A DNA stretch of 64,000 bases from a virus, in IMG/VR virus record IMGVR_UViG_3300042356_001708, positions 39,561 through 103,560 of that record; one strand, given 5' to 3'. The notes under the pieces were generated by a model. It made no database searches. It worked only from the letters and a program-made list of their open reading frames with translations, and was not told where the DNA came from. A program made the position numbers and the translations under genes. Below, one piece after another: positions 19,493 through 61,075 of this stretch (its first letter is position 1; every line of letters begins with the position of its first letter).

Positions 19493-21457
19493 ATGTTACA
19501 AACAGGAGAATCAGGTGAAGCTGGTAAAACAGAAAAACTGCAAACAAAAGATTTAGCCGACCCGTTAACGGAAGCCGGTGAAAGTATGGCAACGTATTTT
19601 AAAAATGCGTTTAATCCTGCTGAAATTTTAAAGTCGTTTGCATCAATTTTTAGTCAATTAGAAGGACTTGCATCGTCGTTTAATAAAACGATGGGTGGAG
19701 GTGATATATACTCTCAAAAAATTAAACAAAATCTTATTGCGGGTAAAGAAGCGGCTGAAGAATATGGTTTTACATTCGCAGATATTGCGTCTTTACAACA
19801 AAAAATTACTGAACAGGAACAAACTAATTTTACATTACAGGGGGACCAATATGAAAGATTTTTAGTTCAAGCTGAGTTAACAAAGGGTATATCACAAACT
19901 GCAGTTCAGGCTGCGTCTAGTAATTACGAAACTTTTAAAAATTTAGGATTAACCGTTCAAGGAACACTAAAAAGTTCTGAAGATATTATACAATCGGCAT
20001 CAAGATATGGTGTAAGTGCCAGTGCGGTATTTAAACAAATTAACGCAAATGCTTCTGAGTTAAATCTATTTAATTTTGATAATGGAGTTCAAGGAATGGC
20101 TAAAATGGCGACTGAATCAATTTTGTTTAAAGCTAATATGAAGACCACTTTGGATTTGGCAAACAATTTATTTGACCCTCAGAAGGCTCTTGATATGGCT
20201 GCGGGTCTACAAAGAATGGGGGTCCAAGTAACAGGAATGTTAGACCCAATATCTTTAATGAACATGGCTGAAAATGACCCTGCGGAGTTACAAAGAAATA
20301 TTGTTGAGATATCAAAATCATTTATGGAATTTGATGAAAAACAACAAAGATTTGTTGTTATGCCAGGGGCTCAAAGACAGATTAGAGAAGTTGCAGCAAC
20401 ATTAGGTATACCGGCTAAAGAGTTGGAAAAAATGGGTAGAAATGCTTTTGAATTGGAAGCTAAAATGGGACAAATTAAATTTCCAAGTATTGATGAATTT
20501 GCAAGTGAGGAAGCTAGAACGATGGTTGCGAATATGGCTCAACTTAATGAGACAACTGGAAAATATGAAATTGAAGTTTATGATAAAGACCTAGGTTATA
20601 ATGTTATTAAAGCTGTTGATGACCTTAAAAAAGATGATTTAAAGGGTGTTGAAAAAGCTCAACAAAACGCAAATAAAAGTACTGAGGAATTATTAAGAGA
20701 TGCGAATGGACATTTAGCGAATATTTCAAACGCATTTAAAGCGGGAACAAGTAGAGTTCCGACCGCTTTGGCAGCATCAAAAGTTGCTCAGGATAAAGTG
20801 TCGTTTGCAGGGGGGTCTGTTGAACCTGTTGTTCAGACATTAATGGATGTTTTATATGGAGAAGAAGGGACAAAAGGTATTACAACTAAAATTAACTTGG
20901 CGAGTAAACAAATTGACCAAATGTTAGAGTCCCTCATCAAGGGTGAAACAACTTTGGCAGATGCTGGAAAAAAACTGACAGAGGTTATTAAAGAGATTGG
21001 GGCAAAAAAAATAGAAGATTTTAAAGAATTTTCAGATGTTTATGGGAAAAACCAACAGGAAGCATTCCAAAGCAATCCCGAATACGACACCCCGTTTCAA
21101 ATTACTCCTGATATGATTAATGCCTTACAAAATTTTGTAAAATCTTTAATGAATGGTAGACAAGTTTCCGATGGTGTAATTAGTCCAGATGGTGGCTTAG
21201 TTGTAATGGGTGAAAAAGGAAGTTTTTTTGCTGATAAAGACGACTCAGTTTTATTATCTCCAAATATACCAACGGGTAGTTCTGATAATAAATCAGGGGG
21301 TCAAACCAATTCAACGGTTACTGCATCGGGTAAGGTTGAAATTGAACATAAGTTTAGTGGAGTTGAAGCGTGGTTTAAAGATTATATGTTATCCCAAGGG
21401 TTCTTGGCGGATTTCGTTCCAACTTTAGAAAAGTTTTTAACAAAAACGGAAGGTTAA
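19493..21457 (+). CDS. Tape measure protein
   Basis: A 654-residue, largely helical protein. It has the composition of tape measures: repeated amphipathic Ala/Gln/Lys/Glu helices (residues about 30-200 and 380-520), little Cys, and a middle part AAGLQRMGVQVTGMLDPISL resembling the conserved segment of other tape-measure proteins. The C-terminal 80 residues turn beta-like and end in a hydrophobic helix (SQGFLADFVPTLEKFL). It stands directly after the gp26/gp51-like pair and before the hub and tube-initiator gene, the standard slot. The protein should set tail length and be ejected at infection. It is short for a long contractile tail if one residue is counted per 1.5 angstroms. Confidence 0.7.
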   Translation: MLQTGESGEAGKTEKLQTKDLADPLTEAGESMATYFKNAFNPAEILKSFASIFSQLEGLASSFNKTMGGGDIYSQKIKQNLIAGKEAAEEYGFTFADIASLQQKITEQEQTNFTLQGDQYERFLVQAELTKGISQTAVQAASSNYETFKNLGLTVQGTLKSSEDIIQSASRYGVSASAVFKQINANASELNLFNFDNGVQGMAKMATESILFKANMKTTLDLANNLFDPQKALDMAAGLQRMGVQVTGMLDPISLMNMAENDPAELQRNIVEISKSFMEFDEKQQRFVVMPGAQRQIREVAATLGIPAKELEKMGRNAFELEAKMGQIKFPSIDEFASEEARTMVANMAQLNETTGKYEIEVYDKDLGYNVIKAVDDLKKDDLKGVEKAQQNANKSTEELLRDANGHLANISNAFKAGTSRVPTALAASKVAQDKVSFAGGSVEPVVQTLMDVLYGEEGTKGITTKINLASKQIDQMLESLIKGETTLADAGKKLTEVIKEIGAKKIEDFKEFSDVYGKNQQEAFQSNPEYDTPFQITPDMINALQNFVKSLMNGRQVSDGVISPDGGLVVMGEKGSFFADKDDSVLLSPNIPTGSSDNKSGGQTNSTVTASGKVEIEHKFSGVEAWFKDYMLSQGFLADFVPTLEKFLTKTEG

Positions 21458-42699: not shown

Positions 42700-43158
42700 A
42701 TGGCAAATGGAAAAACATATGGTATAGATTTTCCTTTCAGAACATCTCAATTTGGTAAATATTTAAGTTTATCTCAAACTGCGGATGATGAAATCAGGAA
42801 TAACTTAGTGCATTTATTGTTGACTAGACGAGGTAGTAGATATTACCTACCTGATTTTGGAAGTAGATTGTATGATTATATTTTTGAGCCAATGGACAGT
42901 CTAACTTTTGATAGTATTGAGGCGGAGATTAGACAATCTTGTGAGAGATATATACCAAACCTTAAAATTTCAAAAATTTCAATTACTGATGCGTCAAATG
43001 ATGATGTTGATTCTGCAACATCTGTTGAGGATTCTGGTGGGAGAACATATAATATGACAGGAATGGGTAATAGAGAATACACCGCAAAAGTTAGAATTGA
43101 TTACGTTATCACCGATAATGTATTTAACTCTAAAGATTTTGTAATTATTAATATATAA
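42700..43158 (+). CDS. 25: Baseplate wedge protein gp25 (lysozyme-fold)
   Basis: A 152-residue protein. The signature TRRGSRYYLPDFGSRLYDYIFEP near residues 47-69, quoted here only in part, is that of gp25-like proteins, in which the P(D/E)FG and L-x-x-x-I-F-E elements are nearly universal among contractile injection systems. It forms the inner wedge core with gp6 and gp53 and initiates sheath assembly. gp6 starts 4 bases downstream. T4 gp25 is 132 residues, so this is slightly longer, with an insert near residues 105-125. Confidence 0.9.
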   Translation: MANGKTYGIDFPFRTSQFGKYLSLSQTADDEIRNNLVHLLLTRRGSRYYLPDFGSRLYDYIFEPMDSLTFDSIEAEIRQSCERYIPNLKISKISITDASNDDVDSATSVEDSGGRTYNMTGMGNREYTAKVRIDYVITDNVFNSKDFVIINI

Positions 43159-43162
43159 TATT

Positions 43163-45001
43163 ATGGCTGAAAAAAGAATATCCTATACAGTTAGGGACTT
43201 CCAAGGATTAAGAACTGAACTTGTTAATTATGTTAAAACTTATTATCCTGAATTAATTGATAATTTTAACGATGCTTCCGTGTTCTCTGTGTTTATGGAT
43301 TTAAACGCTGCGGTTGCAGATAACTTACATTATCATATTGATAGAAGTGTTCAAGAAACTGTCCTACAGTTTGCTCAACAACGCTCGTCGGTTTATAATT
43401 TGGCTAGAACTTATGGTTTAAAAATTCCCGGACAAAGACCGTCAGTATCATTAGTTGAATTCTCCATTACAGTTCCTGCGGCTGGTGATAAAGATGATGA
43501 AAGATATGAAGGTATATTAAGGAGAGGTTCTCAGGTTGTTGGCGCGGGACAAGTATTTGAAACCATTTATGATATTGATTTTACATCACCATATAATGCT
43601 CAAGGGTTTCCGAATAGGTTAAAAATTCCAAATTTTGATTCAAGAGGGAATCTTATTAACTATACAATTACTAAAAGAGAATTAGTTGTAAATGGTGTTA
43701 CAAAAGTATTTAAACAAGTAATAACCCCAAATGATGTTAGACCATTCTATGAAATTTTCTTACCTGGTAAAAATGTTTTAGGTATTACAAGTATCATCCA
43801 AAAAGATGGAACAAGTTATGCTAATGTCCCAAGTCCTCAAGAGTTCTTAGGTACTAATGGTAGATGGTATGAGGTTGATGCGTTGGCACAAGATAGGGTT
43901 TTTATTGAAGACTCAACTAAACCATCAGACAAGCCTGGTGTTAAAATTGGTAAGTGGATACAAACCAATAACCGATTTATCAGTGAGTTTACTCCTGAAG
44001 GATTTATGAAGTTAACATTTGGTGGTGGAACGGGTTCAGCTGAAGACCAACTTAGAGAATTTACAAATTCAGGTAACTTACCTACAATTCAAAATTTTTT
44101 AAATAACTTTTCATTAGGGTCAACCTTAAAGGCGAATACCACTTTGTTTATACAATATCGTTCAGGTGGTGGAGTTGGAAGTAATTTAGGTGTGAATACG
44201 ATTAATCAAATTGGAACTGTAATATTTGTTGTAAACGGACCTTCCGAAACTACAAATACTGCGGTTGTTAATTCATTGAGATGTAATAACGTAACTGCGG
44301 CTATTGGTGGGGCAGGACAACCAACGTTAGAAGAAGTTAGAAACTATGTGGCATTTAACTTTGCAAGCCAAAACAGAGCGGTAACTGTGAATGACTACGA
44401 AGCTTTAATTAGAAAGATGCCAAGTCAGTTTGGTGCACCTGCTAAAGTTGCGGTAATGGAAGAAGAGAATAAAATTAAAGTTAAGATTCTTTCATACGAT
44501 ACTAATGGGGCGTTAACTAATACGGTATCAAATGCGTTATTAGATAACTTAGCAACTTATTTATCAAACTATAGAATGATTAATGATTATATCGCAATTG
44601 AAACTGCGGATGTTGTTGACCTAAGTATTGACCTATATGTTGTATTAGAGTCAACTCAAAATCAGGGTAATATTATTACATCAATAATTGACAAGGTGTC
44701 AAGTTATTTCAATCCATCAAATAGAGAACTTGGTCAGAACGTTAACATATCTGAGATTAATAGAATTTTACAATCCGAAAATGGTGTAATTTCAGTAACT
44801 CAAATTGATATTTTTAACGAGGTTGGAGGTGAGTATTCGTCATCTCAAACATCAATGGCTTACTCAAATACAATAACTAGACAGATTGAACCTCAGGAAG
44901 GGACAATATTCGCATTGCCTAATCAAATATATCAAATTAGGTTCCCGACAAAGGACATTAGAGTGAGAGTTAAAAACTTCCAATCAGTTACACTTTCTTA
45001 A
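43163..45001 (+). CDS. 6: Baseplate wedge protein gp6 (baseplate J-like)
   Basis: A 612-residue protein, close to T4 gp6 (660). The N-terminus ISYTVRDFQGLRTELVNYVK, the following ELIDNFNDASVFSVFMDLNA and LHYHIDRSVQETVL are the standard gp6/gpJ opening. Further on come VNDYEALIRKMPSQFGAP and the C-terminal VTQIDIFNEVGG strand region. Dimers form the iris ring that holds the baseplate and switches at contraction. It directly follows gp25, an arrangement common in contractile tails. 82 bases of AT-rich non-coding DNA follow, holding the next late box. Confidence 0.9.
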   Translation: MAEKRISYTVRDFQGLRTELVNYVKTYYPELIDNFNDASVFSVFMDLNAAVADNLHYHIDRSVQETVLQFAQQRSSVYNLARTYGLKIPGQRPSVSLVEFSITVPAAGDKDDERYEGILRRGSQVVGAGQVFETIYDIDFTSPYNAQGFPNRLKIPNFDSRGNLINYTITKRELVVNGVTKVFKQVITPNDVRPFYEIFLPGKNVLGITSIIQKDGTSYANVPSPQEFLGTNGRWYEVDALAQDRVFIEDSTKPSDKPGVKIGKWIQTNNRFISEFTPEGFMKLTFGGGTGSAEDQLREFTNSGNLPTIQNFLNNFSLGSTLKANTTLFIQYRSGGGVGSNLGVNTINQIGTVIFVVNGPSETTNTAVVNSLRCNNVTAAIGGAGQPTLEEVRNYVAFNFASQNRAVTVNDYEALIRKMPSQFGAPAKVAVMEEENKIKVKILSYDTNGALTNTVSNALLDNLATYLSNYRMINDYIAIETADVVDLSIDLYVVLESTQNQGNIITSIIDKVSSYFNPSNRELGQNVNISEINRILQSENGVISVTQIDIFNEVGGEYSSSQTSMAYSNTITRQIEPQEGTIFALPNQIYQIRFPTKDIRVRVKNFQSVTLS

Positions 45002-45083: not shown

Positions 45084-48000
45084 ATGAGTAAAATTTATAG
45101 GATAAAAACAACTCCTGGAATTGACCAAAATTTAACAGTAAACATAAACCAAGATTTTGAAGAGATTGAATTACTATCTCTTAAAATAAGACAAGAAGAT
45201 GTTTACCCAATCGGATGTGCCAATTATGGAGTCATTGCGGGAAGAGTATTTGTGAACGGGGGATATGGACTACCAAAGGCTAAAGTATCTGTATTTATAC
45301 CTCTTAGACCTGAAGATGAAGATAATCCTGTCTTAACTTCATACTATCCTTATAGAACTCTTGAGGATGTTAATGAAGATGGGTATAAATATAATTTGCT
45401 ACCATACGTAGCTTCTTATAGTGGACACTCACCGACAGGGACATTCCCAACAAGAGAAGATGTATTAAAAGACCCAGTTGCTTCGGAACTTTTTGAAAAG
45501 TATTACAAATATACTGTAACGACAAATGAAAGTGGAGACTATATGATTTATGGAGTCCCACTTGGGACTCACACGATAGTTTTAAATGTTGACTTATCTG
45601 ATATTGGGGAGTTCTCAATGACTCCTCAAGATTTAATTAGAATTGGAAGAGGAACTGAGAATCAATTTAATGGTAGTTTCTTTAGGTCTTCAAATAACTT
45701 TAATGAACTTCCGCAGATTGTTTACGAAACTAAGATAGTACAGGTTAATGCATTTTGGGGTCAAGATGATACCTGTCAAGTAGGAATTACTCGGGCAGAT
45801 TTTGATTTGAGTAGTGGGCAAAATAATATTACCATACAACCAACTGCGGTATTTATGGGTTCTATATTTTCTTCTGAAACCACTAAAAAAGTTAAAAGAA
45901 GATGTAAAGTTAAATCTAAATTAGGTCAATTATGTCAATTAACTACAGGACCTGGACAGATTATTGCTATTAGACAAACTATAGATATTGATGATGATGG
46001 GTATCCTGTCTTAGAAAAATATGATTTACCACAAAACGGTAAATTGATAGATGCTGACGGGACTTGGGTAATTGAAGTCCCTATGAACTTGGACTATGTT
46101 TACACTAATGAAAATGGTGAAAGAGTATTAAGTGATGACCCTAAATTAGGAATTCCTACAAATGGTAAATATAGATTTAAAATTAAATGGCAACAACCTG
46201 CGGGACTTACTGAAGAAAACAGAAGAGGGTATTTCTTAGTTCCAAACATTAAAGAACACGGATGGACAAACAGTGGGGAAGACCCTCTATTACAGGATAC
46301 TGAAACTTTTACTATTCAAACTAATGACCCAGTTATTAATATAGTCGGACAATCAGGTTATGTGTATCGTGTTAAGTCAAAAACAAATGTAACTGATTTT
46401 GTTGTTGAATTAGACGGTAACCCATACGTGGGTAACAAAAATGACATTTTATTAAATTCAAATGATATTATTTCTATAACTCCCACATATGAGGATGATG
46501 AAGCAACATCTACTTGGGTGTTTGAAAAAATACCTTTGGTAAAATATAGATTAGAAAGGTCATATGCATTTAGTTTAAGTTGGTATGATTACAATGACCC
46601 TCAGGAGGCTATTGATTGTATAGACACGTTTTATTTTATGAAATATAATAAAGTATATACTGTGTCACAATTATTAGATAGATATACGTCAAGAAGATTT
46701 ACTTGGAATACTTTACAGATAAAAAATATAAACACAGATGATTGTGATGAATCAACTAATAAATTACCTGTTAATGATGTTCAGTATAGATTTGTTCCAA
46801 TATTCATATTACTAAGTTTCTTTTTAACTCTTATGAAATTTTTGCTTAGGGCAATTATCATTCCTATGCATTTATTAGCGTTCTTATGGCCTGTAATCTT
46901 CTTGATTATGCAACTTGTGTGGGTTATACAAATGTTAATACACGGAATATGTAAGGCGTTAAATAAAATTAGAGGATGGTTAGGTAAAGCAAAAAAAGAA
47001 TGTGGTGAAAAACCAAAAAGAACAAAATATGCGGATAACTGGTTTAGAAATGTAAAACTACCTCTTTTATTATACACTGAAGATGGGTGTGAAAGATGTG
47101 ATTGTAAAGATTCTGAAATTGACCTTAGCGGTAATGAAACTGCCGATGGGTTACAACAAAACGCAACAGACGCTAGAACAGGAACAATAAATAGTAGCCC
47201 ACTTGCGGATTTTAATAGTGCAGATGCGTATACTGTAGGAGATTTCCAACAGGATTTTCCGTATCTATGGGAAGGACCAAATACGACTACGATTTATGAA
47301 GACACTCCTAATGATGCTAATGGACCTGAATATCTTGATGTTTTGTTCACAAATTCATTAACAATTGCTGAAAGATTAAATACTTTTAATTTAAAGGATA
47401 AATATTTTGATACTACAACTATTAACGGTGGTGTTGGTAGAAATCAAGTTAAGAGAACTGTAACAGGTAATGGTAATATCTACCATTATGATAATACAAT
47501 GGTCTTGGTTGTTGATGGTTCGGAATTAAGTAATTTTATTTCAGGACAACTAATTTCATTCAGCGACCCAACTTTATCTACCGACCCAAATCTTACAGGT
47601 GCGACTGTTAATACTGGAGGAACTAACTCAATAACAGGAACCCCGATTTCAAACGGGGCGCAATGGACGGTTAATTATGCTTCACCATCAAACCCAACTG
47701 TGAGTAATTCAGTTACTTATACGATTAACTATAGTGGAGAATCAAAGGATTACTTAACTTTCCCTACTGATATGGAATATTTTCAGGTATTGACTGGATT
47801 AACGTTAGGTACATTTTCCGCTTTAACTGAGAATCATACAAATATCAACAGTAATTTCTTAAATAGGTCTAATAAAACTGACTTCTTAAACAGGTATTTG
47901 AATAATCAAATGAGAGTTTATGATATTGTTGGGGATTATTTAGGTTCTAATGTTCAAAACCCATGTAAAGATGCTTTATGGAGAAGTATTGGTTTGGCTC

Positions 48001-50339
48001 CAAACCCTGGATTTGACGCTTCCTCATCTTCAAACATTCAGACTCCTTTATTCTACTATGACGGAGCCCAAAGTTTAGGTATTATTATACTACAAAGAGG
48101 TGTTGACCCGCACTCACCAAAAGTACAACAAGAAATTGACTTATCAAGAATATTTGGATGGGCAAACTATGGGCAGGCAGGTTTGACAATAACAGGGGAG
48201 TTTAATTTAAATATACCAATACAGTCATCGTCAAGTTCATTAAAATTGCCAAGACATAATCAGTTTACTACAAATAATGCGACTGACTTTGGTAGTAGTA
48301 TCTTCTTTCAAGGAACATTTGATGTTCAGGGAACATTCTCTTCTTACACAAGTAATTTATTACGGTATTACTCAAGATTAGGGGAGAACGGAAATTCAAC
48401 AACCGCATCTGTTCCATCCTCAAACTATTTAACAAAGGTCCAAACGGATAGCAATGCGGTTGCTAGTACGACTTCTTGCGGATGTGATACTTTTTACAAT
48501 TTAAAACTTGGTTGGTGGTTTACTCAAGGAAATAATTCTCAATATGGTTATAGTGTTGGGGAGTATGTTGAAGGGGGAAGTTACGCTGATTTGGGAATGT
48601 CAAACTCTATATCTACTTTTTGTGGAGAATCGGTACCAAATGAAGTTTCGGCGTACGCATCATATATTTCAAATATATACCCTTCAAGTACCACAGTTCA
48701 AATGGTTAATCCAAGTAAACTAGTAATGAGGACTGACAGATTACCATCTTCCACGCAAATTCCTTCAGGTGATACTACAGGAAACGGAATTTTATTAATG
48801 CATCAGAATCCTTCATTTACAATTTATTTATTAGATGAATCTGGTTCAGCTCAAGCTTTAGGAAGTGCTCCTGAAGTGTATACCTTCACTGAAATAGAAA
48901 CTGAGGATATACCATCACAATATATGAATGTGATTGAGTCACTTTCGGATTGTTCTAAAGCGGTTCCATTGGAATGTTATGTTGTTAATCCCGATAATAC
49001 AGTATCTATTAAACCTTGTGATGAAAGTAACGGAACTTGTTGTGGTAAAAATTATAATACAGGTGGATTTAGGTCTTGGTTTAATTATGGGTTTGGATGT
49101 TATAATTTAGTGTCATTCCCAATTATTTCCATTGTAAAAGATTTCAATTTAATAATTGAATTTATACAAAGATTAAAATTAAATATGGCGTTATGTTTTG
49201 ATGTGTTTTCACACACATTTGGAAATGCTTGGATAAACGGGACATTATATGCTTTCCCATTCCAAATGAATACATTTTTTGACACTCAAAACAAACCTAA
49301 CTACAATTATTGTAAAGAATTAATGTATTTTCATGACCCGACTAATAATTTTTATTATAGAAGTTCACCATATAATGATAATAATAATAAATTTATTGGT
49401 AGAGATGCAAATGAAAGAGCAAATGATAACGGAAATGAAAAACAATTAGGATTTCCAACAACTATGATGGACTTGGGACCAAAAGTTCCTTACTTACAGG
49501 AAATAGTTTTCAGTGATGATTATGATGGATATATTGTTGATAAATTAGATTCAACATCATTCAAAAATGTTTCTGACATATTGAATGTTATGATTTTAAG
49601 TAGATTTGTTAATGAGAATTTTCTCAGTCTATTTTTACCTGGTCTTGGTAGTGGTTCTGACCCATCAGTTGCGGGATTCTTTAGAAATAAAAGATGGAAC
49701 CCAAGTGGAAATATATTATTCCCTGGAACTATTGATGGGGATTACTCACAAATGGCGTCAGTTAATTCTGAATTTGGAATTGCTGAATTCTCACCTGAGG
49801 GATATGATATTAATACGTCATTTAAAGTTATGAGAGATAACTCTAATTATGCTTATTTTGAAATATTCTTTTCAGGTAATAATCAAGATAGAGATTACAT
49901 CACACCAAGAAGAAAAATATGGAATGAGAATGCGTCCACGGCTCCTCTACCATCTGATTTTGGATACATAAGTACATTTTCACAAGAAGTTCCATTCTAT
50001 GAATGGGAATTTAAAACTACTAACTCAGGAACTATTTTCGGTAATCAGAATAACAATTGGGATACAAATGAAAGTGGATTTTTTAAATACAAATATCAAT
50101 CAATTGATAGAATTTCACCGGCGTCCCATTCGGTAATTGTTGGGTCAAGTAATTCAAAATATTGGAAAGGGTTTATTTATAATGTAGATAGTAATGGAAA
50201 TGCGACTGACTCAATACCAAGCGGGTTCCAAGATAAAAGACAGGTTAATAATCCATTTTTCTTTTATTTTGGATTAAAGAAAGGGGCTAGTGCGTATGAC
50301 AAATTTAAAACTAAATATATAAATGAAACTGATTTATAA
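45084..50339 (+). CDS. Giant baseplate/tail protein with carboxypeptidase-regulatory-like domain and hydrophobic membrane-like segment
   Basis: A 1751-residue protein in the place of T4 gp7, right after gp6. Residues about 50-180 resemble a carboxypeptidase regulatory-like beta sandwich: GVIAGRVFVNGGYGLPKAKV, then NESGDYMIYGVPLGTHTIV. Residues about 570-625 are strongly hydrophobic (FILLSFFLTLMKFLLRAIII and AFLWPVIFLIMQLVWVIQML), enough for two membrane helices. Next come a basic stretch and a Cys cluster, EDGCERCDCKDSE. The remaining 1100 residues are beta-rich, Gly/Ser/Asn-rich, with a second, shorter hydrophobic patch near 1345. It may be a wedge protein that also contacts the host membrane during injection; that role is inference. 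Its stop overlaps the next start (TAATG). Confidence 0.6.
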   Translation: MSKIYRIKTTPGIDQNLTVNINQDFEEIELLSLKIRQEDVYPIGCANYGVIAGRVFVNGGYGLPKAKVSVFIPLRPEDEDNPVLTSYYPYRTLEDVNEDGYKYNLLPYVASYSGHSPTGTFPTREDVLKDPVASELFEKYYKYTVTTNESGDYMIYGVPLGTHTIVLNVDLSDIGEFSMTPQDLIRIGRGTENQFNGSFFRSSNNFNELPQIVYETKIVQVNAFWGQDDTCQVGITRADFDLSSGQNNITIQPTAVFMGSIFSSETTKKVKRRCKVKSKLGQLCQLTTGPGQIIAIRQTIDIDDDGYPVLEKYDLPQNGKLIDADGTWVIEVPMNLDYVYTNENGERVLSDDPKLGIPTNGKYRFKIKWQQPAGLTEENRRGYFLVPNIKEHGWTNSGEDPLLQDTETFTIQTNDPVINIVGQSGYVYRVKSKTNVTDFVVELDGNPYVGNKNDILLNSNDIISITPTYEDDEATSTWVFEKIPLVKYRLERSYAFSLSWYDYNDPQEAIDCIDTFYFMKYNKVYTVSQLLDRYTSRRFTWNTLQIKNINTDDCDESTNKLPVNDVQYRFVPIFILLSFFLTLMKFLLRAIIIPMHLLAFLWPVIFLIMQLVWVIQMLIHGICKALNKIRGWLGKAKKECGEKPKRTKYADNWFRNVKLPLLLYTEDGCERCDCKDSEIDLSGNETADGLQQNATDARTGTINSSPLADFNSADAYTVGDFQQDFPYLWEGPNTTTIYEDTPNDANGPEYLDVLFTNSLTIAERLNTFNLKDKYFDTTTINGGVGRNQVKRTVTGNGNIYHYDNTMVLVVDGSELSNFISGQLISFSDPTLSTDPNLTGATVNTGGTNSITGTPISNGAQWTVNYASPSNPTVSNSVTYTINYSGESKDYLTFPTDMEYFQVLTGLTLGTFSALTENHTNINSNFLNRSNKTDFLNRYLNNQMRVYDIVGDYLGSNVQNPCKDALWRSIGLAPNPGFDASSSSNIQTPLFYYDGAQSLGIIILQRGVDPHSPKVQQEIDLSRIFGWANYGQAGLTITGEFNLNIPIQSSSSSLKLPRHNQFTTNNATDFGSSIFFQGTFDVQGTFSSYTSNLLRYYSRLGENGNSTTASVPSSNYLTKVQTDSNAVASTTSCGCDTFYNLKLGWWFTQGNNSQYGYSVGEYVEGGSYADLGMSNSISTFCGESVPNEVSAYASYISNIYPSSTTVQMVNPSKLVMRTDRLPSSTQIPSGDTTGNGILLMHQNPSFTIYLLDESGSAQALGSAPEVYTFTEIETEDIPSQYMNVIESLSDCSKAVPLECYVVNPDNTVSIKPCDESNGTCCGKNYNTGGFRSWFNYGFGCYNLVSFPIISIVKDFNLIIEFIQRLKLNMALCFDVFSHTFGNAWINGTLYAFPFQMNTFFDTQNKPNYNYCKELMYFHDPTNNFYYRSSPYNDNNNKFIGRDANERANDNGNEKQLGFPTTMMDLGPKVPYLQEIVFSDDYDGYIVDKLDSTSFKNVSDILNVMILSRFVNENFLSLFLPGLGSGSDPSVAGFFRNKRWNPSGNILFPGTIDGDYSQMASVNSEFGIAEFSPEGYDINTSFKVMRDNSNYAYFEIFFSGNNQDRDYITPRRKIWNENASTAPLPSDFGYISTFSQEVPFYEWEFKTTNSGTIFGNQNNNWDTNESGFFKYKYQSIDRISPASHSVIVGSSNSKYWKGFIYNVDSNGNATDSIPSGFQDKRQVNNPFFFYFGLKKGASAYDKFKTKYINETDL

Positions 50340-52093
50340 TGGGTGGTTATGAAAATATAGAGATACTTTTAGGTTCTGCAAAATTTGCAACGAGTCCTAA
50401 TCGTAATATGAGAATAACTCCATTTTTGGATGGTAAAATTCAGGAACTTGAAGAATATGATAGGTCGGCAATTATAAATTTACCCGAACTTTATAATTCC
50501 GAAAGGCAGGAGTGTTCAATATTTAGACCATCGTTTTCAACCAAAGTAATTTTTTACAACGCTTATACTGGGACAACTAATATCAATGGAACAAGTTATG
50601 GTCCGTTTTTAAATGAATTATTGTATACTGATGCTGAGAATTCAATAGTTGGAGGAACTCATCCAGGGACTTGGTATGGATATCCACCATATAAAGAATT
50701 TAATTTTTATAGAAACGATACTGATAGTGTTCATGTTGATTTTGCAACAAAATCTGCATTGACTTACAATTGGGGATATTATCTAAGTTATGCTTTTGAA
50801 AATAACTCAGGAAAAACATTCCAACATTATTTCTCTCCAACCAATTCAATTACTTGGACTTGTTCCGAAGGGATTCCATTTATTATTTCAAGGCAAGAAA
50901 TGAACGGAAGGGTTTTCATAGTGTTTAGATGTCCGATGAAACATAATTTGCTAAAAGGTGATTATGTTGAAATTGAGTTCCAAGGTGGGTGGGACGGTAT
51001 TAATGGGAATAAGTATTTCCAAGTTGATATGTTAGGAACTGAAAGTTATGGTAGTGATGAGATAATTTTTAACATTCAGGATATCGGTTACGATAGTCCA
51101 TTTTTCGCAAACTCCTCAATTGGATTATTTAAGAAGGTTGTTGATATTACCAACCCTGAGGATACTAAATCAATCTACTACGTTAGAAGACATAAAATAC
51201 TGACTAACACACAGGATTCAATACCATTAAAAGCTGCGTTTTCACAGAACGGGTTCTTTAGTAAGAAAAAATTTTTGACGAGCGCTTTAACGCCTAATTA
51301 TGTTTCTAGAGTTGTAGAACAAGACGGGTCTCAAAACTTCAACATTACTTTTTCTAAAGACATTATAATATCAGGATATACTGATAATTTAAACCGACCA
51401 TTAAGTGAACTTTATTTAACAATAATTAATAAGGGATATTTTGGATGGTTTAACCGACCAAGACCCAACACTACAACTAATTCTGCCTTAAAACAAGGTC
51501 ATAAATTTAACATATCGTTTACCTCTGGAAATTGGTGGGACGACAACAATTTGTTGAACGATACTAATATTGGAACAAATTCATATACTAAAACATTTAA
51601 TGGTGAAAATTATGAATTTTATTATAATCAAGATTTAGTAAGTGGTGATACTATAGATGGAGATTTTTGTGAATATAATAGTTATTTGCAAGAAGAAAGT
51701 GTAATATCTGAATTTTATCATAAGTTTGAATTTAACAATTTGTTGTTTGATATAACATTTAGTGCGTCAACCAATAGAAACGGTTATTATTACAAACCAC
51801 ATAATGGTGTTACGATTAATGTATTTTCTGATTACATTGAGGAGAGTAATGTTTTAGGGATTTTAAATGTTCCACCATACGCCTTTTATTCTGAAACCTT
51901 GGGGACCCTAAGATGGAGAGACATTTACCCTTATGGTTATGTTGACTCAAACGGGAGAGGGGTTAATTTCCCATATATGAATAATGCTCATTATCCGTTA
52001 CAGAATATAGATTTTAAAATATATCCTGAAAATAACATAAACGAATTTGTATTTGGTGCGATACAATTACCTACAGTTGATGATTGTGAATAA
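50339..52093 (+). CDS. Tail/baseplate structural protein, unrecognised
   Basis: A 584-residue protein, beta-rich and Asn/Tyr/Phe-rich, with no family I can name. N-terminal segment NMRITPFLDGKIQELEEYDR and the repeated aromatic strands (YYLSYAFENNSGKTFQHYF, FDITFSASTNRNGYYYK) suggest a large beta structure such as a baseplate arm or fibre connector. It is coupled to the preceding giant gene by TAATG and overlaps the next gene by 14 bases, so it is part of the baseplate/fibre operon. In T4 this position would hold gp8. Confidence 0.55.
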   Translation: MGGYENIEILLGSAKFATSPNRNMRITPFLDGKIQELEEYDRSAIINLPELYNSERQECSIFRPSFSTKVIFYNAYTGTTNINGTSYGPFLNELLYTDAENSIVGGTHPGTWYGYPPYKEFNFYRNDTDSVHVDFATKSALTYNWGYYLSYAFENNSGKTFQHYFSPTNSITWTCSEGIPFIISRQEMNGRVFIVFRCPMKHNLLKGDYVEIEFQGGWDGINGNKYFQVDMLGTESYGSDEIIFNIQDIGYDSPFFANSSIGLFKKVVDITNPEDTKSIYYVRRHKILTNTQDSIPLKAAFSQNGFFSKKKFLTSALTPNYVSRVVEQDGSQNFNITFSKDIIISGYTDNLNRPLSELYLTIINKGYFGWFNRPRPNTTTNSALKQGHKFNISFTSGNWWDDNNLLNDTNIGTNSYTKTFNGENYEFYYNQDLVSGDTIDGDFCEYNSYLQEESVISEFYHKFEFNNLLFDITFSASTNRNGYYYKPHNGVTINVFSDYIEESNVLGILNVPPYAFYSETLGTLRWRDIYPYGYVDSNGRGVNFPYMNNAHYPLQNIDFKIYPENNINEFVFGAIQLPTVDDCE

Positions 52094-54021: not shown

Positions 54022-54930
54022 ATGGCAGTAGGTTCATATGGAACAATTAGACCAGCGGATGTCTCACCGGCAGATATTGAGGTAATATTAAATTACACCC
54101 CATCAAGGGATGTGACTAGTAATTTTATTCTGAAAAAATTAGATGCGAGAACAATTATTAGACCTTACTTTAATAATGGTGACACTGGAGGGAATCCTAA
54201 TATTGAGATATTAGGGGGGTTATATAATCTAACATTACCATCGTCTGAATTTAATAAGTTAGGTATCTATACTTTATATATAAGACCTGCACAAATCAGA
54301 ACTACAATAACGGATTGTGGAGTTTTGACCTCGTTACCAAACATTAAGGGGATTGTTATTGACATAAGTAATGTTCCTAATGAATTCCAAAATAAATTCA
54401 TTCCTCAAGAGTTGGTTGGACATCGTGTTGAATACCTAAGAGATTCAGGAGCTAAAATACCTAACTTTTTTAGATTAATCACATCAAATTTTTATTGTGA
54501 GGCGGTTACTGAAAATTTAGTTAACTCAGTACAAAAAGCTGTTAGATATAGATATACGGATTCTAAAACTAATTTGATGTTTTGTACTTTATCTCCATCT
54601 TCAGCACCTACTTCAAAACCAAATGCAACTCCATTTATCGGACAACCCGGACAAAATATAATAATTAGTAATACATTTTTTAACCCAACTTCTGTTGAAG
54701 TTGAGATGGTTGAACACGATGCTTCCACATTGGCAATTGCCTTGTTTGGTAATCAAACAAAATCTATTGATGATGGTATCTACACAATGTATGATAGTGG
54801 TAATAACATTTATAAACAATACAATTTGTTTGAAGTAAGAGACCAATATAATAAATTGTTATTTGAAGTTAGACAAGATAGAAATAATAACATTGACTTT
54901 AGTAAAAACTTTAACAATATAGTTCAGTAA
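54022..54930 (+). CDS. Tail/baseplate protein, unrecognised
   Basis: A 302-residue beta-rich protein. The N-terminal GTIRPADVSPADIEVILNYTP opens like an immunoglobulin-like structural domain. GIYTLYIRPAQIRTTITDCG and the C-terminal YNLFEVRDQYNKLLFEVRQD are repeated strand pairs. No family recognised. Its stop overlaps the start of the 981-residue gpI-like gene (TAATG), so the two are coupled and may assemble together. Confidence 0.55.
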   Translation: MAVGSYGTIRPADVSPADIEVILNYTPSRDVTSNFILKKLDARTIIRPYFNNGDTGGNPNIEILGGLYNLTLPSSEFNKLGIYTLYIRPAQIRTTITDCGVLTSLPNIKGIVIDISNVPNEFQNKFIPQELVGHRVEYLRDSGAKIPNFFRLITSNFYCEAVTENLVNSVQKAVRYRYTDSKTNLMFCTLSPSSAPTSKPNATPFIGQPGQNIIISNTFFNPTSVEVEMVEHDASTLAIALFGNQTKSIDDGIYTMYDSGNNIYKQYNLFEVRDQYNKLLFEVRQDRNNNIDFSKNFNNIVQ

Positions 54931-57875
54931 TGGCGAGAAAGTTATATAGATATCCACCGAGACCATCTAGCGGAGCTGGCACGTTTTCGGATAATATTGT
55001 TGGATTCCAAGTGGTTGATGGGGGAGGTCTAACTCAAGGTAATTTTGAGTTTACGTCAAGTTTAACTGAAAAGGTTAACCGAACTTTCTCAATTGGAGCA
55101 TTTTCATCACCAATAACATTAGATAATTTACAGATAGAGTCTGTTGAGGAAACTAAACGAATTGTTGCTAAAGAATTTGGAGTTTATCCAAATTTTGACT
55201 TATCTAATGTAACTAAGTTCTCAACATATGGACCATTAACCAAAAGATTTGCATCTTCAATTACACATATTATTAATTATTTTCCTGCAGCAATTGAGTT
55301 ATATGCTTTAGGGGGTGATTTTATATCGGGTTATACTGCGGTTAACATTGAGTTTGATATTGAAGAAGATACGTCAACTTTTAGTATTCCGATTGGTAAG
55401 ATAAGTAATCCATTTGAAATTGATTTTACGTCTAATTCTACTAGAAATATTGAAACTAAAGAATTTGAGGTTTCATATCTGAGAAATATGACATTAGAGT
55501 ATAGTAAGTATGCGGTATATGTCAGAGATATCCAATACGAGATATTAAACATGACCCCAACTACTAGTTTAACTAGTGGTTATCTTAATTTAACTGTTGC
55601 AGGTAATCCATTTTCAGGTGAAGTTAATTCTTACGAAACTCTAATAATTAAACCTAACGATTATTACACCGAAGTTGCATTTACTGAACCGTTTGATGAA
55701 ATTGAGAAATATCTGTTAAATAGATTAGTAACTCCCAAATACAGTGCTATTTTCCAAGTTCCAAAACAAAATGACAACGGCTCAACATTTGTTGGTACTG
55801 AAACTGCCACTTGGCCATTGTACGGAAAATGGAATTTGGATATTATTACAAATAATTTCACATCGTATATTAACCAAATTAATACTATCGCTACAAATTT
55901 TGATAACTCAAAGACAAATTTAATTTCAAGATTTTTAGTAACGGACGCCTTTAAAGAATTTGATACTTACGACCAAAGAGTTGATAAAGTATTACATATA
56001 TATGGTAGAAGTTTTGATGAAGTTAAAAAATTCATTGACGCACTTGCGTATATGAATTCTGTAAATTATAATACTAAGAATGATATACCATCGGAACTAC
56101 TTAAAAATTTGTCACAAACATTAGGATGGAATATAAACGTATCTCCTGTGACTGAAGAAGATTTTTTGAAGTCGGTATTTGGGAATGATACTAAGTCCCC
56201 ATATCCTGGAATGTCAAGAAGTTTAACACCAAGTGAAATTAACTATCAATTTTATAAAAATTTAATTCTTAATTCGGCGTACCTATTTAAATCAAAAGGT
56301 ACGAGAAGAGCGTTAGAATTCTTATTAAGATTGGTTGGAGCTCCTGAAGCGTTAATTGAGTTTAATGAGACAGTTTATCTTGCTGACCAAAAAATTAATA
56401 TGAGAGATTTTAGAACTGAGTGGGCTAAAATATCTGGAGGAACTAAACTTGAAGAGACAATTAGTTTTAATCCTAATGACACATATTCAATTTTTGGACA
56501 AACTTTTTCAGGATATACTGCGACCACAAATGTTGTAACGGTAGATACTTTAGAAGGGGATTACCCTATAGATGAAGAGGGATACCCAAAAACACCTGCA
56601 AACACTAGTTCATTCTTCTTTCAGTTAGGTGCTGGTTGGTATGAGTTAACACCCCCTCACCAAAGTAATCAGGATGTTAATAATACCGAATCTGTATTCA
56701 CGGGGCAAAACACTAATGTTCAAACTGATTTTAAAAAATTCACTTATGGACAACAATATCTTGATAGATTTAGAAATTTCCCATATATGGATTTAGGTTT
56801 TAAATTAACCAAAATTAGTGATAATAAAAAGAGTTGGTCGTTTAGAGATAAAACTAGAATATCTAATGATGGAGGGTTTAATGCATTCTACTATGCAAAT
56901 GACGAGAGATTAGTATTGAACGTCAAAAACATTGATTTATTCATGAATCCTGCTGCGGGTCTTGTATTTGATGTGTGGACCATGTCATCAAAATATGGAT
57001 ATCCGATTTCAAATAATACAACACAACAAGTTTATGGTAATGGGATGAGGGTGACATCAAGTGTCCCACCTAATAAACAATCATTTTTTGAATTTGCTAA
57101 CACATTTTGGCAAAATAAAGTAAATGTTGCAAACCGACAAATATCAAGTGGTTATGATGACGTGTCATTAATTTATTGGAGGTATTTGGAATCTGCAAAT
57201 CAAGTTGGTATTCCTAATGATAATTTCACATATCAAAAATTAATTGATTATGTTAAAAATTTAGGTACGTATTGGCCAAAATTAGCGGAACAACTAATCC
57301 CATCGTCAACTATTTGGAATACGGGTATTAAATATAGTAACGCCCCATTCCAAAGACAAAAACACACATATAAGATTCCAAGAAGTTGTAGTGCGTTTAT
57401 TCCTCCGACACTTTGTAAACCCTGTATTATTGATGGGGATTTATTTTTACATGGAGCATGTCAGGGAGTAACATCATTTCCAATTTTTCCTTGGTTAAAT
57501 GGAACGACTAGTTACACAAGTTTCCAATCATTGTTAAATGAAATAATTTTTAATTACGTTTCTCAGAAAATATCGCAAGGGTATACATGTAATCAAAATT
57601 CTGTCTCAACAACATGGAAGATGATAGTGTCAATAGATGGTATTGATGTAATTTCAAGTATTATATATAATGGCAATGGACCTACGGATACTCCAAGTAA
57701 TTCGGATTGGACCAATGCTTTAAATCAATATTTACCGAATTTGGTTAGTTATGGTTATACTTTTGAGATTATTGATAGTAATGTTTTAATAAAGTATTTA
57801 GGATTTAGTCCTATTGCGAATAGTAGTAGTATTGAAATAAAATTAAACGTAGATTTTAGTATAAGTTGTAGTTAA
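54930..57875 (+). CDS. Tail protein with P2 gpI-like baseplate-fibre connector domain
   Basis: A 981-residue protein. Near residues 330-480 it has LISRFLVTDAFKEFDTYDQR, VDKVLHIYGRSFDEVKKFID, LSQTLGWNIN and FKSKGTRRALEFLLRLVGAP, the signature of the tail protein I family (P2 gpI), in which a K-x-KGT-x-x-(S/A)-L-x-x-x-L-x-x-L-G helix is nearly invariant. These proteins link fibres to the baseplate. An N-terminal beta region (1-320) and a C-terminal region with a Cys-rich segment (SCSAFIPPTLCKPCIIDGD) extend far beyond the roughly 180-residue P2 protein. Coupled by TAATG at both ends; the SprB-repeat fibre gene follows. Confidence 0.65.
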   Translation: MARKLYRYPPRPSSGAGTFSDNIVGFQVVDGGGLTQGNFEFTSSLTEKVNRTFSIGAFSSPITLDNLQIESVEETKRIVAKEFGVYPNFDLSNVTKFSTYGPLTKRFASSITHIINYFPAAIELYALGGDFISGYTAVNIEFDIEEDTSTFSIPIGKISNPFEIDFTSNSTRNIETKEFEVSYLRNMTLEYSKYAVYVRDIQYEILNMTPTTSLTSGYLNLTVAGNPFSGEVNSYETLIIKPNDYYTEVAFTEPFDEIEKYLLNRLVTPKYSAIFQVPKQNDNGSTFVGTETATWPLYGKWNLDIITNNFTSYINQINTIATNFDNSKTNLISRFLVTDAFKEFDTYDQRVDKVLHIYGRSFDEVKKFIDALAYMNSVNYNTKNDIPSELLKNLSQTLGWNINVSPVTEEDFLKSVFGNDTKSPYPGMSRSLTPSEINYQFYKNLILNSAYLFKSKGTRRALEFLLRLVGAPEALIEFNETVYLADQKINMRDFRTEWAKISGGTKLEETISFNPNDTYSIFGQTFSGYTATTNVVTVDTLEGDYPIDEEGYPKTPANTSSFFFQLGAGWYELTPPHQSNQDVNNTESVFTGQNTNVQTDFKKFTYGQQYLDRFRNFPYMDLGFKLTKISDNKKSWSFRDKTRISNDGGFNAFYYANDERLVLNVKNIDLFMNPAAGLVFDVWTMSSKYGYPISNNTTQQVYGNGMRVTSSVPPNKQSFFEFANTFWQNKVNVANRQISSGYDDVSLIYWRYLESANQVGIPNDNFTYQKLIDYVKNLGTYWPKLAEQLIPSSTIWNTGIKYSNAPFQRQKHTYKIPRSCSAFIPPTLCKPCIIDGDLFLHGACQGVTSFPIFPWLNGTTSYTSFQSLLNEIIFNYVSQKISQGYTCNQNSVSTTWKMIVSIDGIDVISSIIYNGNGPTDTPSNSDWTNALNQYLPNLVSYGYTFEIIDSNVLIKYLGFSPIANSSSIEIKLNVDFSISCS

Positions 57876-60800
57876 TGGCACAGAATGTAATTGGTTTAGA
57901 AATCCTTGGATTAACCGGATGTTGTGATGGTAATATTTTATGTAGTAGTGGTGCTGCGACACTTAACATATTAACTGGTAGTGGCCCATTTGTTGCACAA
58001 ATTATTTCACCATATGTTGGAACTTCAGTTTTATTAGTTAGAGAGGCCTATACTTTCACAGGGTTATCTGCAGGTACATATACAATATTTGTTAGTGATT
58101 ATGACACTCCAGTAAATAATACGGCAACAATTGATTTTTATATTTCATCAGGAATATCGGCAAATACAATTGCTGTTGATAGCACTTGTGGTTTAAATAA
58201 TGGGGAAATTGAAATCACATTATCACCAAATTTAGGTAATTCAAATACCTTTAGTTTGTACGATGTAGATGATACTTTATTATCTGTAACACAATCAACA
58301 GACAATCCATACACAATATCAGGATTATCACCGAATGCTTATTATGTTATTATAGAAGATGGTGGAGGATGTAGTGCCAACACAGGAACTATGGTTATTG
58401 ATAGTTCTTATGGTAGTTTATCAATTAACGCTGAAGTTACTAATACATCACCATGTGCTTTAACCCCAAATGGTGAAATTTTATTAACACTATATAATGA
58501 AATACCTCCTGTTACAGTTACTTGGTCAACTAATGTTGGTGTACAGTCAAGTGATTATAATTTAACAGGATTAACAAATACAAATTATGTTGTAACAGTT
58601 AGTGATGGTTCAGGTTGTGAAGTTACTCAAACTGTTATAGTTGGGTTAGACGATAGATTAGGAATTGCGGAATTTTCATTCACAAATCCATCTTGTTTTT
58701 TAAGTGATGGCGTTGTTAATATAACATTATCAGGAGGTTCTTTACCTATCACATATTACACGTCAAATGGCTCAACATTTACAAGTGGTAGAACGGTATC
58801 ATTTACAGGTTTATCTTCAGGGGCGTTTAGTTTTACGGGAGTAAGTAGTACTTGTAATGTAAGTCAAACCTTTAATTTACAAACTGCAAATTCATTCGGA
58901 GTAATTTCGTCAAATAATGGATTTAGAGATTGTTCAAATAATAGTGGGTTTATATCAACCACAATTAATGGGGGAGGTGCTCCGTTATCCGCATCCTGTG
59001 TTAGTAACAACGGATTTGTTTCTACCCAATCCAATTTACCTGCAAATTCTACAATTACTTTTGGTAGTTTAACTGCTGGGACGTATACAATTAGTATCAC
59101 TGATGCGACATCCGCCTGTACTTACACTGATACTATAACTTTAACTCAAGATTTAGGATTTGATTTTGAACTTATACCTACTAACACCACTTGTGGAATT
59201 AATAATGGGACCTGTTTTATTGATATTACAACAACAATAACTGGACAAACATTCACTTTGGGGTTATCTAACGGAGCGACTATAAGAAATTTAACAACTG
59301 ATTACACCTTACAAAATATCCCACAAGGAAGTTACGGGGTAACGTTAACAAATAATTCAGGTTGTTCTATAACTAAAAATTTTACAGTAGGTGGTTCAAA
59401 TGGAGTTGATTTTAATTTAGTTAATTCAGGATGTTTACCACAAGGAACATTAACCGCATTTATTAATAGTGGGACACCTCCTTATACATTAACTTGGGAG
59501 GGAGATGTTTCGGGTCAAACAGGATTTGCGGTTTACAATTTAAGTAATGGAAATTATGGATTAACAGTCACAGATTCACAAGGATGCTCAACAAGAAAAA
59601 CCGTAACAGTAAAATGTGAATTAAGAGAAGTTACAACATATAGTTATGATTTCGGTAGTGGTGATTTTGTTTGTGGAAATGATGATACTGTAGGATTTTT
59701 GCAGATGTTAAATCAAACATTTGTTGAATTAACTAACGGACAATCAAATTGTTTAATGAACCTGGCTTATTTTTATGTTGATATTGAAGTGGGAACTACT
59801 GCGACAACACTAGATTTATACACGTCTACATCTTTAACTGATGTTCCAACAAATTTACAGTATGCCCAGATTGTTCAAAATTATTTAAATAGTTTAGGAG
59901 TATTTGGAAGTTTAATTGTTGATTATGAAAGTGGAAGAATTGTTATAAATAGTTTGTGTGATAATCCTTTACAACCTTCTGATATAGTTAAAATCTCGGT
60001 TAGAATTTTAATGAATGTTACTTGTGACCAAGTAATACAAATAACACCAACACCAAGTATCACCCCAACATCAACATCAGGATTAATTCCTGTCCCATCA
60101 CCTGAAGTTAGTGTCACACCAACATTAACTCCTCAACCTTCCTTCACGCCAACAGTTACTCCAACAGTTACGGTTACCCCTACAAATACTGTAACACCTA
60201 CAAAAACGATTACCCCAACACCTTCAGACGCAAGTCCATGCTCAATTACTATTGATAGTATTAGTCCATCGGCTTGTGACCCAAATACCTCAACGTATTA
60301 CATTTCAGGAACTAATGTGGTTCATGTATCTAATCCACCATCAACAGGAACGTTAATAATTGCAAATGGATGTTCTCGTACACAAACAATTTATTATCCA
60401 CCATTTAGTTCTGATTACAATATATCATTTACAGATATTACTGCTGACGGTCAATACTGCTCAATATATGTTACATTTAGTGATGCTAACTGTAGTGCGT
60501 TGTATACATATAAAGCTCCTGATTATTGCAGTAATACACCAACACCAACGGTGACTCCTACTAAAACACCAACACCAACGGTGACTAAAACAGTTACTCC
60601 TACTGTAACTAAAACTCCTACAACCACACCCACTCCTACTGTAACTAAAACTCCTACAACTACACCTACACCGACAAAAACAACAATTACATTACCAACA
60701 CCTACAGTTACACCGACTAAGACAGTAACTCCAACGGTAACTAAGACAGTAACACCTACGGTCACTCCGACTAAAACACCAACACCAACACCAACTAAAA

Positions 60801-61075
60801 CATCACCAGCTTGTGAATGTTATAATGTTAATAATACTAACCCAAGCCCTGTGTCAATTACCTACATTGATTGTATAGATAGAGAGGTAATTATAACTGT
60901 TAATGGATTAACGACTAGTCCTAATTTCTGTGCTAAAGGATTCAAACCACCAACACCACCATTTAGAGTATCTTATAATAAGGTTGGAGCTTGTTCCGGA
61001 GGATTCTGTCTTACGACCCCAACACCAACACCAACAAAAACAAAAACACCAACCCCAACCTCGGTAAAGAAGTAA
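57875..61075 (+). CDS. Tail fibre/adhesin with SprB-like repeats and P/T-rich C-terminus
   Basis: A 1066-residue protein. From about residue 100 to 580 it has roughly six or seven repeats of about 80 residues, each with CxLxNGxIxIT near the start and a close of the form YxVTVxDxxGC: NYVVTVSDGSGCEVTQTVIV, TYTISITDATSACTYTDTI, SYGVTLTNNSGCSITKNFTV and NYGLTVTDSQGCSTRKTVTV. This is the SprB repeat of Bacteroidota gliding adhesins. From about residue 725 on, it becomes P/T-rich, with long Thr-Pro-Thr runs around small Cys-containing units, ending TPTPTSVKK. Likely a host-recognition fibre. Coupled to the gpI-like gene through TAATG. Confidence 0.75.
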   Translation: MAQNVIGLEILGLTGCCDGNILCSSGAATLNILTGSGPFVAQIISPYVGTSVLLVREAYTFTGLSAGTYTIFVSDYDTPVNNTATIDFYISSGISANTIAVDSTCGLNNGEIEITLSPNLGNSNTFSLYDVDDTLLSVTQSTDNPYTISGLSPNAYYVIIEDGGGCSANTGTMVIDSSYGSLSINAEVTNTSPCALTPNGEILLTLYNEIPPVTVTWSTNVGVQSSDYNLTGLTNTNYVVTVSDGSGCEVTQTVIVGLDDRLGIAEFSFTNPSCFLSDGVVNITLSGGSLPITYYTSNGSTFTSGRTVSFTGLSSGAFSFTGVSSTCNVSQTFNLQTANSFGVISSNNGFRDCSNNSGFISTTINGGGAPLSASCVSNNGFVSTQSNLPANSTITFGSLTAGTYTISITDATSACTYTDTITLTQDLGFDFELIPTNTTCGINNGTCFIDITTTITGQTFTLGLSNGATIRNLTTDYTLQNIPQGSYGVTLTNNSGCSITKNFTVGGSNGVDFNLVNSGCLPQGTLTAFINSGTPPYTLTWEGDVSGQTGFAVYNLSNGNYGLTVTDSQGCSTRKTVTVKCELREVTTYSYDFGSGDFVCGNDDTVGFLQMLNQTFVELTNGQSNCLMNLAYFYVDIEVGTTATTLDLYTSTSLTDVPTNLQYAQIVQNYLNSLGVFGSLIVDYESGRIVINSLCDNPLQPSDIVKISVRILMNVTCDQVIQITPTPSITPTSTSGLIPVPSPEVSVTPTLTPQPSFTPTVTPTVTVTPTNTVTPTKTITPTPSDASPCSITIDSISPSACDPNTSTYYISGTNVVHVSNPPSTGTLIIANGCSRTQTIYYPPFSSDYNISFTDITADGQYCSIYVTFSDANCSALYTYKAPDYCSNTPTPTVTPTKTPTPTVTKTVTPTVTKTPTTTPTPTVTKTPTTTPTPTKTTITLPTPTVTPTKTVTPTVTKTVTPTVTPTKTPTPTPTKTSPACECYNVNNTNPSPVSITYIDCIDREVIITVNGLTTSPNFCAKGFKPPTPPFRVSYNKVGACSGGFCLTTPTPTPTKTKTPTPTSVKK
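60052..60800 (+). repeat. P/T-codon tandem and imperfect repeats in the fibre gene
   Basis: Repeated ACxCCx units encode Thr-Pro runs. Exact duplicates include a 21-base unit at 60536-60556 and 60566-60586, and a 26-base unit at 60599-60624 and 60635-60660. Two repeat blocks (60052-60232 and 60532-60800) flank a unique Cys-containing segment. Confidence 0.8.

Follow-up and report, generated by a model that had tools for sequence, protein, structure and literature searches.

Transfer of DNA across the host inner membrane by contractile phages is poorly understood. Attention has so far been on tape-measure proteins, whose published role is to get DNA or ions across the inner membrane (PMC13190303; PMC10996793). 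The locus described here raises the question of whether a protein encoded among baseplate genes may also work at a membrane. The window, which is the whole 64,000-nucleotide stretch that was analyzed, covers positions 39,561-103,560 of a 103,560-base IMG/VR virus fragment. The record encodes a gp23-type capsid protein (PF07068, E 5.8e-72) together with tail sheath, tube, gp25-like, and gp6-like genes and is, therefore, a T4-superfamily myophage.

The initial annotation described a giant baseplate-region protein with a segment as hydrophobic as transmembrane helices, followed by a basic stretch and a CxxCxC cluster. This description was confirmed in each of its parts. The protein is 1751 residues long, with gp25-like and gp6/Baseplate_J-like genes just upstream, and its layout is as follows:

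45084..50339, plus strand: the 1751-residue protein, of an apparently phage-only family, in the baseplate operon (open reading frame; no match in Pfam, PHROGs, NCBIfam, or PDB sequences)
45084..46763, plus strand: N-terminal region, residues 1-560, the most conserved part, with beta-sandwich-like modules (identity; weak Foldseek matches)
46785..46853, plus strand: membrane-helix candidate 1, residues 568-590, universal in homologs (hydropathy, conservation)
46851..46940, plus strand: membrane-helix candidate 2, residues 590-619, with His596 near its start (hydropathy, conservation)
46941..47003, plus strand: basic amphipathic stretch, residues 620-640 (hydrophobic moment 1.71)
47061..47105, plus strand: PLLLYxxxxCxxCxC motif, residues 660-674 (conserved C669, C672, and C674)
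47181..50336, plus strand: C-terminal region, residues 700-1751, less conserved, with no recognized fold (33% mean identity)

Hydrophobicity of the segment

Residues 566-619 are at transmembrane-level hydrophobicity. On the Kyte-Doolittle scale in 19-residue windows (KD19), values of at least 1.6 span residues 566-608; the peaks, which do not overlap, are at 570 (2.36) and 597 (2.50). A simple Hessa sum fell below zero only in this segment (-0.92 and -0.21), and no other open reading frame of at least 90 residues in the window rose above a KD19 of 1.77 or went below a Hessa sum of +3.2. When the whole protein was shuffled (n = 1000), the mean maximum KD19 was 1.71 and the extreme was 2.81. Since shuffles can reach 2.81, the peak in this single sequence is not, taken alone, beyond composition. 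The segment is nevertheless not a product of chance, because it is conserved across homologs; an accident of composition, for which the shuffles leave room, was rejected as its origin on that basis.

The hydrophobic helices are apolar on every side (moment 0.6-0.9, mean KD 1.6-2.2), compared to a moment of 1.71 for the basic amphipathic stretch that follows them, HGICKALNKIRGWLGKAKKEC. The CxxCxC cluster lies at residues 669-674. The protein has 23 cysteines in total, and 13 of them are kept in at least 60 of 62 homologs (C45, C231, C284, C512, C554, C669, C672, C674, C1290, C1298, C1312, C1339, and C1371). This seems an unusual number for a phage structural protein, and the mature virion might use them in disulfides or metal sites.

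Conservation across homologs

Conservation was scored as a segment with KD19 of at least 1.6 within 220 residues upstream of CxxCxC. All 156 open reading frames that span the region have such a segment, in a constant place. In an enlarged set, a script found both the hydrophobic segment and CxxCxC in 170 of 171 distinct sequences. The peak KD19 in these 170 had a median of 2.63 and a minimum of 2.02; the median maximum in the rest of the protein was 1.29. The remaining sequence (L253) keeps the hydrophobic segment (maximum KD19 2.72) and carries CxxC in place of CxxCxC. The check on homologs proposed in the initial annotation, thus, found the hydrophobicity kept in 171/171 distinct sequences carrying the region, although identity in the segment is only 27%. 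Mean pairwise identity was 60% over residues 41-395 and 15% just after the segment, and C669, C672, and C674 were kept in 62/62 aligned homologs. In these 62, the segment had a mean KD of 1.74 with a minimum of 1.05. The sequence after the helices is basic, with a mean net charge of +1.48, and the distance between the flanking motifs varies from 84 to 170 residues.

Helices were counted with two home-made approximate methods, which are not trained topology predictors. Segmentation with generic log-odds gave 1, 2, 3, and 4 helices in 23, 48, 42, and 14 of 127 sequences, respectively, at the middle setting, and the same 127 proteins yielded only 15 helices in total outside the membrane region. 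A constant topology was sought across the homologs and was not found, as the helix number ranged from one to four and was both odd and even. Constant helix parity (two or four, with both ends on one side) was also tested and rejected. The varying helix number suggests that no single topology is essential, and any mechanism must accommodate this variation. The first helix (NFD-LLYFLFSIL...) is present in every homolog, and the sequence after this helix and its turn is highly variable. His596, in or next to the turn, is shared by at least 90% of the aligned homologs.

Selection on the segment was examined in three pairwise comparisons of near relatives, which are not independent of one another; dN was 0.05-0.17 vs a dS above 1.2, indicating purifying selection, and 26 of 30 substitutions at hydrophobic positions stayed hydrophobic (63% is expected for random nonsynonymous changes). 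Across the wider family, hydrophobicity was kept at 71%; for hydrophobic positions within the N-terminal domain the figure was 65%, a small margin because the segment aligns poorly at this distance.

Predicted structure

AlphaFold2 models were made of the monomer with 62 homologs, and residues 1-1200 and 560-1751 were modeled separately (mean pLDDT 69.9 and 72.7, respectively). In both models, residues 572-632 form one continuous helix at a pLDDT of about 65-88, and in the model of residues 1-1200 the flanks of this helix, 528-570 and 656-702, are below 50. The reading that the initial annotation set against its own was a helix bundle buried in a soluble domain; in these monomer models, the helix lies outside the folded domains and is packed into none of them. 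A single helix of 61 residues should not be read literally because AlphaFold does not model membranes. For the N-terminal half, Foldseek showed a weak resemblance to beta-sandwiches of the pilin/CnaB type (E about 1e-4). Foldseek found no PDB fold match for the C-terminal half, and its matches to antibodies were discarded as meaningless.

Retention of hydrophobicity amid sequence divergence, together with the AlphaFold placement, makes a predicted membrane domain in this protein well supported. We consider it quite probable that the segment is membrane-embedded at some stage.

Family and distribution

Profile scans of IMG/VR found at least 562, at least 592, and at least 598 relatives. Besides the lack of matches in the four collections named above, there was no relative among 50,697 GenBank phage records, and no cultured member was found. 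Two scans of GTDB genomes, which rely on short patterns, found no relative, and a cellular origin was rejected on this result. BFVD contained one clear relative, UniProt A0A8S5LA66 from Myoviridae sp. ctPuP5, an uncharacterized protein with no function recorded. It is a relative of the N-terminal half, to which it aligns across 399 columns at 37% identity (Foldseek E 8.5e-36). Among PDB sequences, hits to subunits of respiratory complex I (E 0.69-3.4) were rejected as a chance likeness between hydrophobic helices. As judged from sequence, the 1751-residue protein belongs to a family that is new and confined to phages, in a large T4-like group that is uncultivated. Some contigs carrying its gene are 318-322 kb, so this group includes jumbo-sized genomes. 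In two contigs the relative gene is split: in L011:8001-13225 into open reading frames of 506 and 1231 residues, with the break, either real or a sequencing error, inside the hydrophobic segment, and in L019 with the break further downstream.

Judged by gp6 and the sheath, the nearest relatives in culture include Flavobacterium phage immuto and Microcystis phage Mel-JY01. The membrane-domain protein was not found in the cultured relatives that share gp6 and sheath and, thus, is not required for infection by such tails in general. Downstream of the baseplate genes, at 57875-61075, is a fiber-like open reading frame whose 1066 residues include 34 cysteines (3.2%). It matches SprB repeats weakly (E 2.2e-5), which points to Bacteroidota-type adhesin modules. 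This match and the kinship with immuto suggest that the host group is probably Bacteroidota. Another fiber-like open reading frame, L175:13673-15058, has a 24-residue periodic pattern on the opposite strand, which suggests a 72-base tandem repeat in a tail-fiber gene.

Gene neighborhood

The genes that bear on the identity of the protein are the following:

42700..43158, plus strand: gp25-like baseplate wedge gene (PF04965 E 1.1e-11, phrog_261 3.9e-19)
43163..45001, plus strand: gp6/Baseplate_J-like wedge gene, directly upstream (PF04865 E 1.7e-7, phrog_219 E 1e-20)
50339..52093, plus strand: g584, a 584-residue protein, directly downstream (synteny; TAATG overlap)
54930..57875, plus strand: 981-residue protein, likeliest gp7 counterpart (homologs after gp6 in cultured phages)
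19493..21457, plus strand: 654-residue candidate tape measure, no membrane helices (follows tube and hub-like genes)

The order gp6, 1751-residue gene, g584 is invariant in every contig that shows the neighbors, and the stop of the 1751-residue gene overlaps the start of g584 as TAATG. The conserved baseplate block runs gp25-gp6-1751-residue gene-g584-g272-g384-g302-g981. No GenBank phage gave a match to g584. The gene after gp6 in immuto and Mel-JY01 encodes a protein of 369 or 386 residues, respectively, that lacks hydrophobic segments, and a homolog of the 981-residue protein with 1265 or 1336 residues comes soon afterward. The 981-residue protein has a signature, KSKGTRxSIEFLLRL, that resembles STKGIEASYKFLFKLL of T4 gp7, with a profile comparison that was not significant (E 0.26). 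It is likely the gp7 counterpart, as are the unannotated 1265- and 1336-residue proteins. The 1751-residue protein was rejected as a T4 gp7 homolog (hhalign E 0.76 and 0.65). Given this signature and the other proteins that follow gp6 in immuto and Mel-JY01, the membrane-domain protein is probably an addition specific to its phage group rather than the gp7 counterpart.

The initial annotation had also called such a segment unexpected in a wedge protein. The segment itself stands, but T4 gp7 and the Anabaena protein Cis13, both discussed below, are precedents for it, and the wedge identity is weakened by the 981-residue protein being the likelier gp7.

Proposed function and alternatives

The 1751-residue protein is most likely a tail or baseplate component with a built-in membrane domain. 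From its observed segment, conserved hydrophobicity, and place in the operon, we infer membership of the virion, which we regard as probable, as well as membrane insertion and its timing and direction. The combined explanation that we favor, tentatively and with slightly more doubt than belief, is a virion baseplate protein that enters the host inner membrane on contraction. This tail or baseplate component, specific to a large T4-superfamily phage group, would carry a membrane domain between beta-rich N-terminal and C-terminal regions. The domain would have one universal helix, a frequent second, and up to two further helices in some relatives, and it would be closed by a PxLxYxDCxxCxC element. 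Before contraction, the helices would be shielded in the virion; this burial must be assumed because hydrophobic helices left exposed on a protein at the baseplate periphery would aggregate. Rearrangement of the baseplate on contraction would then insert the helices into the host cytoplasmic membrane, where they may hold the tail end or form part of the DNA passage.

Tape-measure proteins are normally given the credit for such membrane work. The lambda tape measure helps the genome to cross the inner membrane (PMC13190303), and the diffocin tape measure CD1366 has five predicted transmembrane helices (PMC10996793). Like the 1751-residue protein, these and T4 gp29 (KD19 peak 2.20) are tail proteins with hydrophobic or predicted membrane helices. 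However, a tape measure is a helical protein that occupies the lumen of the tube and has its gene close to the tube gene, whereas the 1751-residue protein has a beta-rich model and is encoded among wedge genes. In these respects it does not match a tape measure, and a separate tape-measure candidate is present. That candidate, at 19493-21457, was assigned by position and composition, and its maximum KD19 is 1.05 (0.89-1.05 with its relatives). Its lack of a membrane helix, whereas T4 gp29 has one, favors entry by the baseplate protein. That the candidate lacks helices because the 1751-residue protein replaces it is only a suggestion, since its identity as a tape measure is inferred and a second hydrophobic open reading frame exists. 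This open reading frame (L174:9544-11445 in record bases, outside the window, minus strand) encodes 633 residues with KD19 peaks of 2.16 and 2.06. Its relatives at 63% identity are also hydrophobic, and it has no family match. It may be the true tape measure or a second tail protein that acts on membranes. Several points weigh against entry by the 1751-residue protein: the L174 product could be the membrane-active tail protein instead, a helix number of 1-4, including odd numbers, leaves no single conserved topology, burial in the virion has to be assumed, and cultured relatives with the same gp6 and sheath infect without such a protein.

Another explanation, a serious rival that we nonetheless judge rather unlikely, is that the domain is not an entry device and ties the baseplate or growing tail to the inner membrane of the producing cell. 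The basic character of the sequence behind the helices (mean net charge +1.48) fits the cytoplasmic side, and an internal hydrophobic segment is expected to target a protein to the membrane co-translationally. There is also a parallel in the Anabaena contractile system, in which the baseplate-bound Cis13 has a putative transmembrane helix that is needed for proper membrane anchoring; Cis13 goes to the envelope when expressed in E. coli and directs GFP there (PMC8894136). Cis13/Cis12 of the Anabaena tCIS is bound to the baseplate of a contractile tail machine and contacts a membrane through a predicted transmembrane helix, and so resembles the 1751-residue protein by analogy alone; unlike it, Cis13 has one C-terminal helix, a trimeric fiber form, and a non-phage origin. 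However, phages must exit the cell and nothing points to release of an anchor, and the inconstant helix number makes the topology inconstant as well.

A rival of nearly the same weight is that the helices are structural, with copies packed as a trimer or hexamer in the virion that never meet a membrane. AlphaFold covered a single chain, which leaves room for oligomeric burial, and T4 gp7 (NC_000866 gene 7) has a comparable single segment at residues 886-904 (KD19 2.07 at 886) despite being part of the soluble baseplate wedge. The GenBank note on gp7 calls its C-terminus a "predicted integral membrane domain." The two proteins share a baseplate operon, a gene directly behind gp6, and a transmembrane-like hydrophobic segment, but they have no sequence or profile similarity. 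T4 gp7 has only one such segment, close to its C-terminus, and the sequence of this segment is conserved across Straboviridae, as that of a packed core should be. In the 1751-residue protein, by contrast, the sequence of the segment is poorly conserved, and length (84-170 residues) and helix number vary while hydrophobicity is kept. Up to four long helices that are apolar on all faces would also be unusual for a soluble core.

A late membrane protein outside the virion that merely sits in the baseplate operon, for example for superinfection exclusion or envelope modification, would fit the large extracellular-type beta-rich N-terminal region, 23 cysteines, and membrane domain, but is very unlikely given the invariant slot between gp6 and g584, the start-stop overlap with g584, and a size typical of tail proteins.

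A further and doubtful idea is that, in this large uncultivated group, the task of penetrating the membrane has passed from the tape measure to a baseplate protein dedicated to it. Its fast-changing multi-helix domain would then be matched to the host inner membrane, as a second, hidden determinant of host range after receptor binding. Across hundreds of related environmental phages, a protein of the baseplate operon that is absent from the protein-family libraries used retains a membrane-like domain, and the pattern FPVND...helices...PxLxYPDCxxCxC provides a sequence marker for annotating phages of this group. These findings lead to the testable claim that one component of the baseplate may become inserted in a cell membrane or anchored there.
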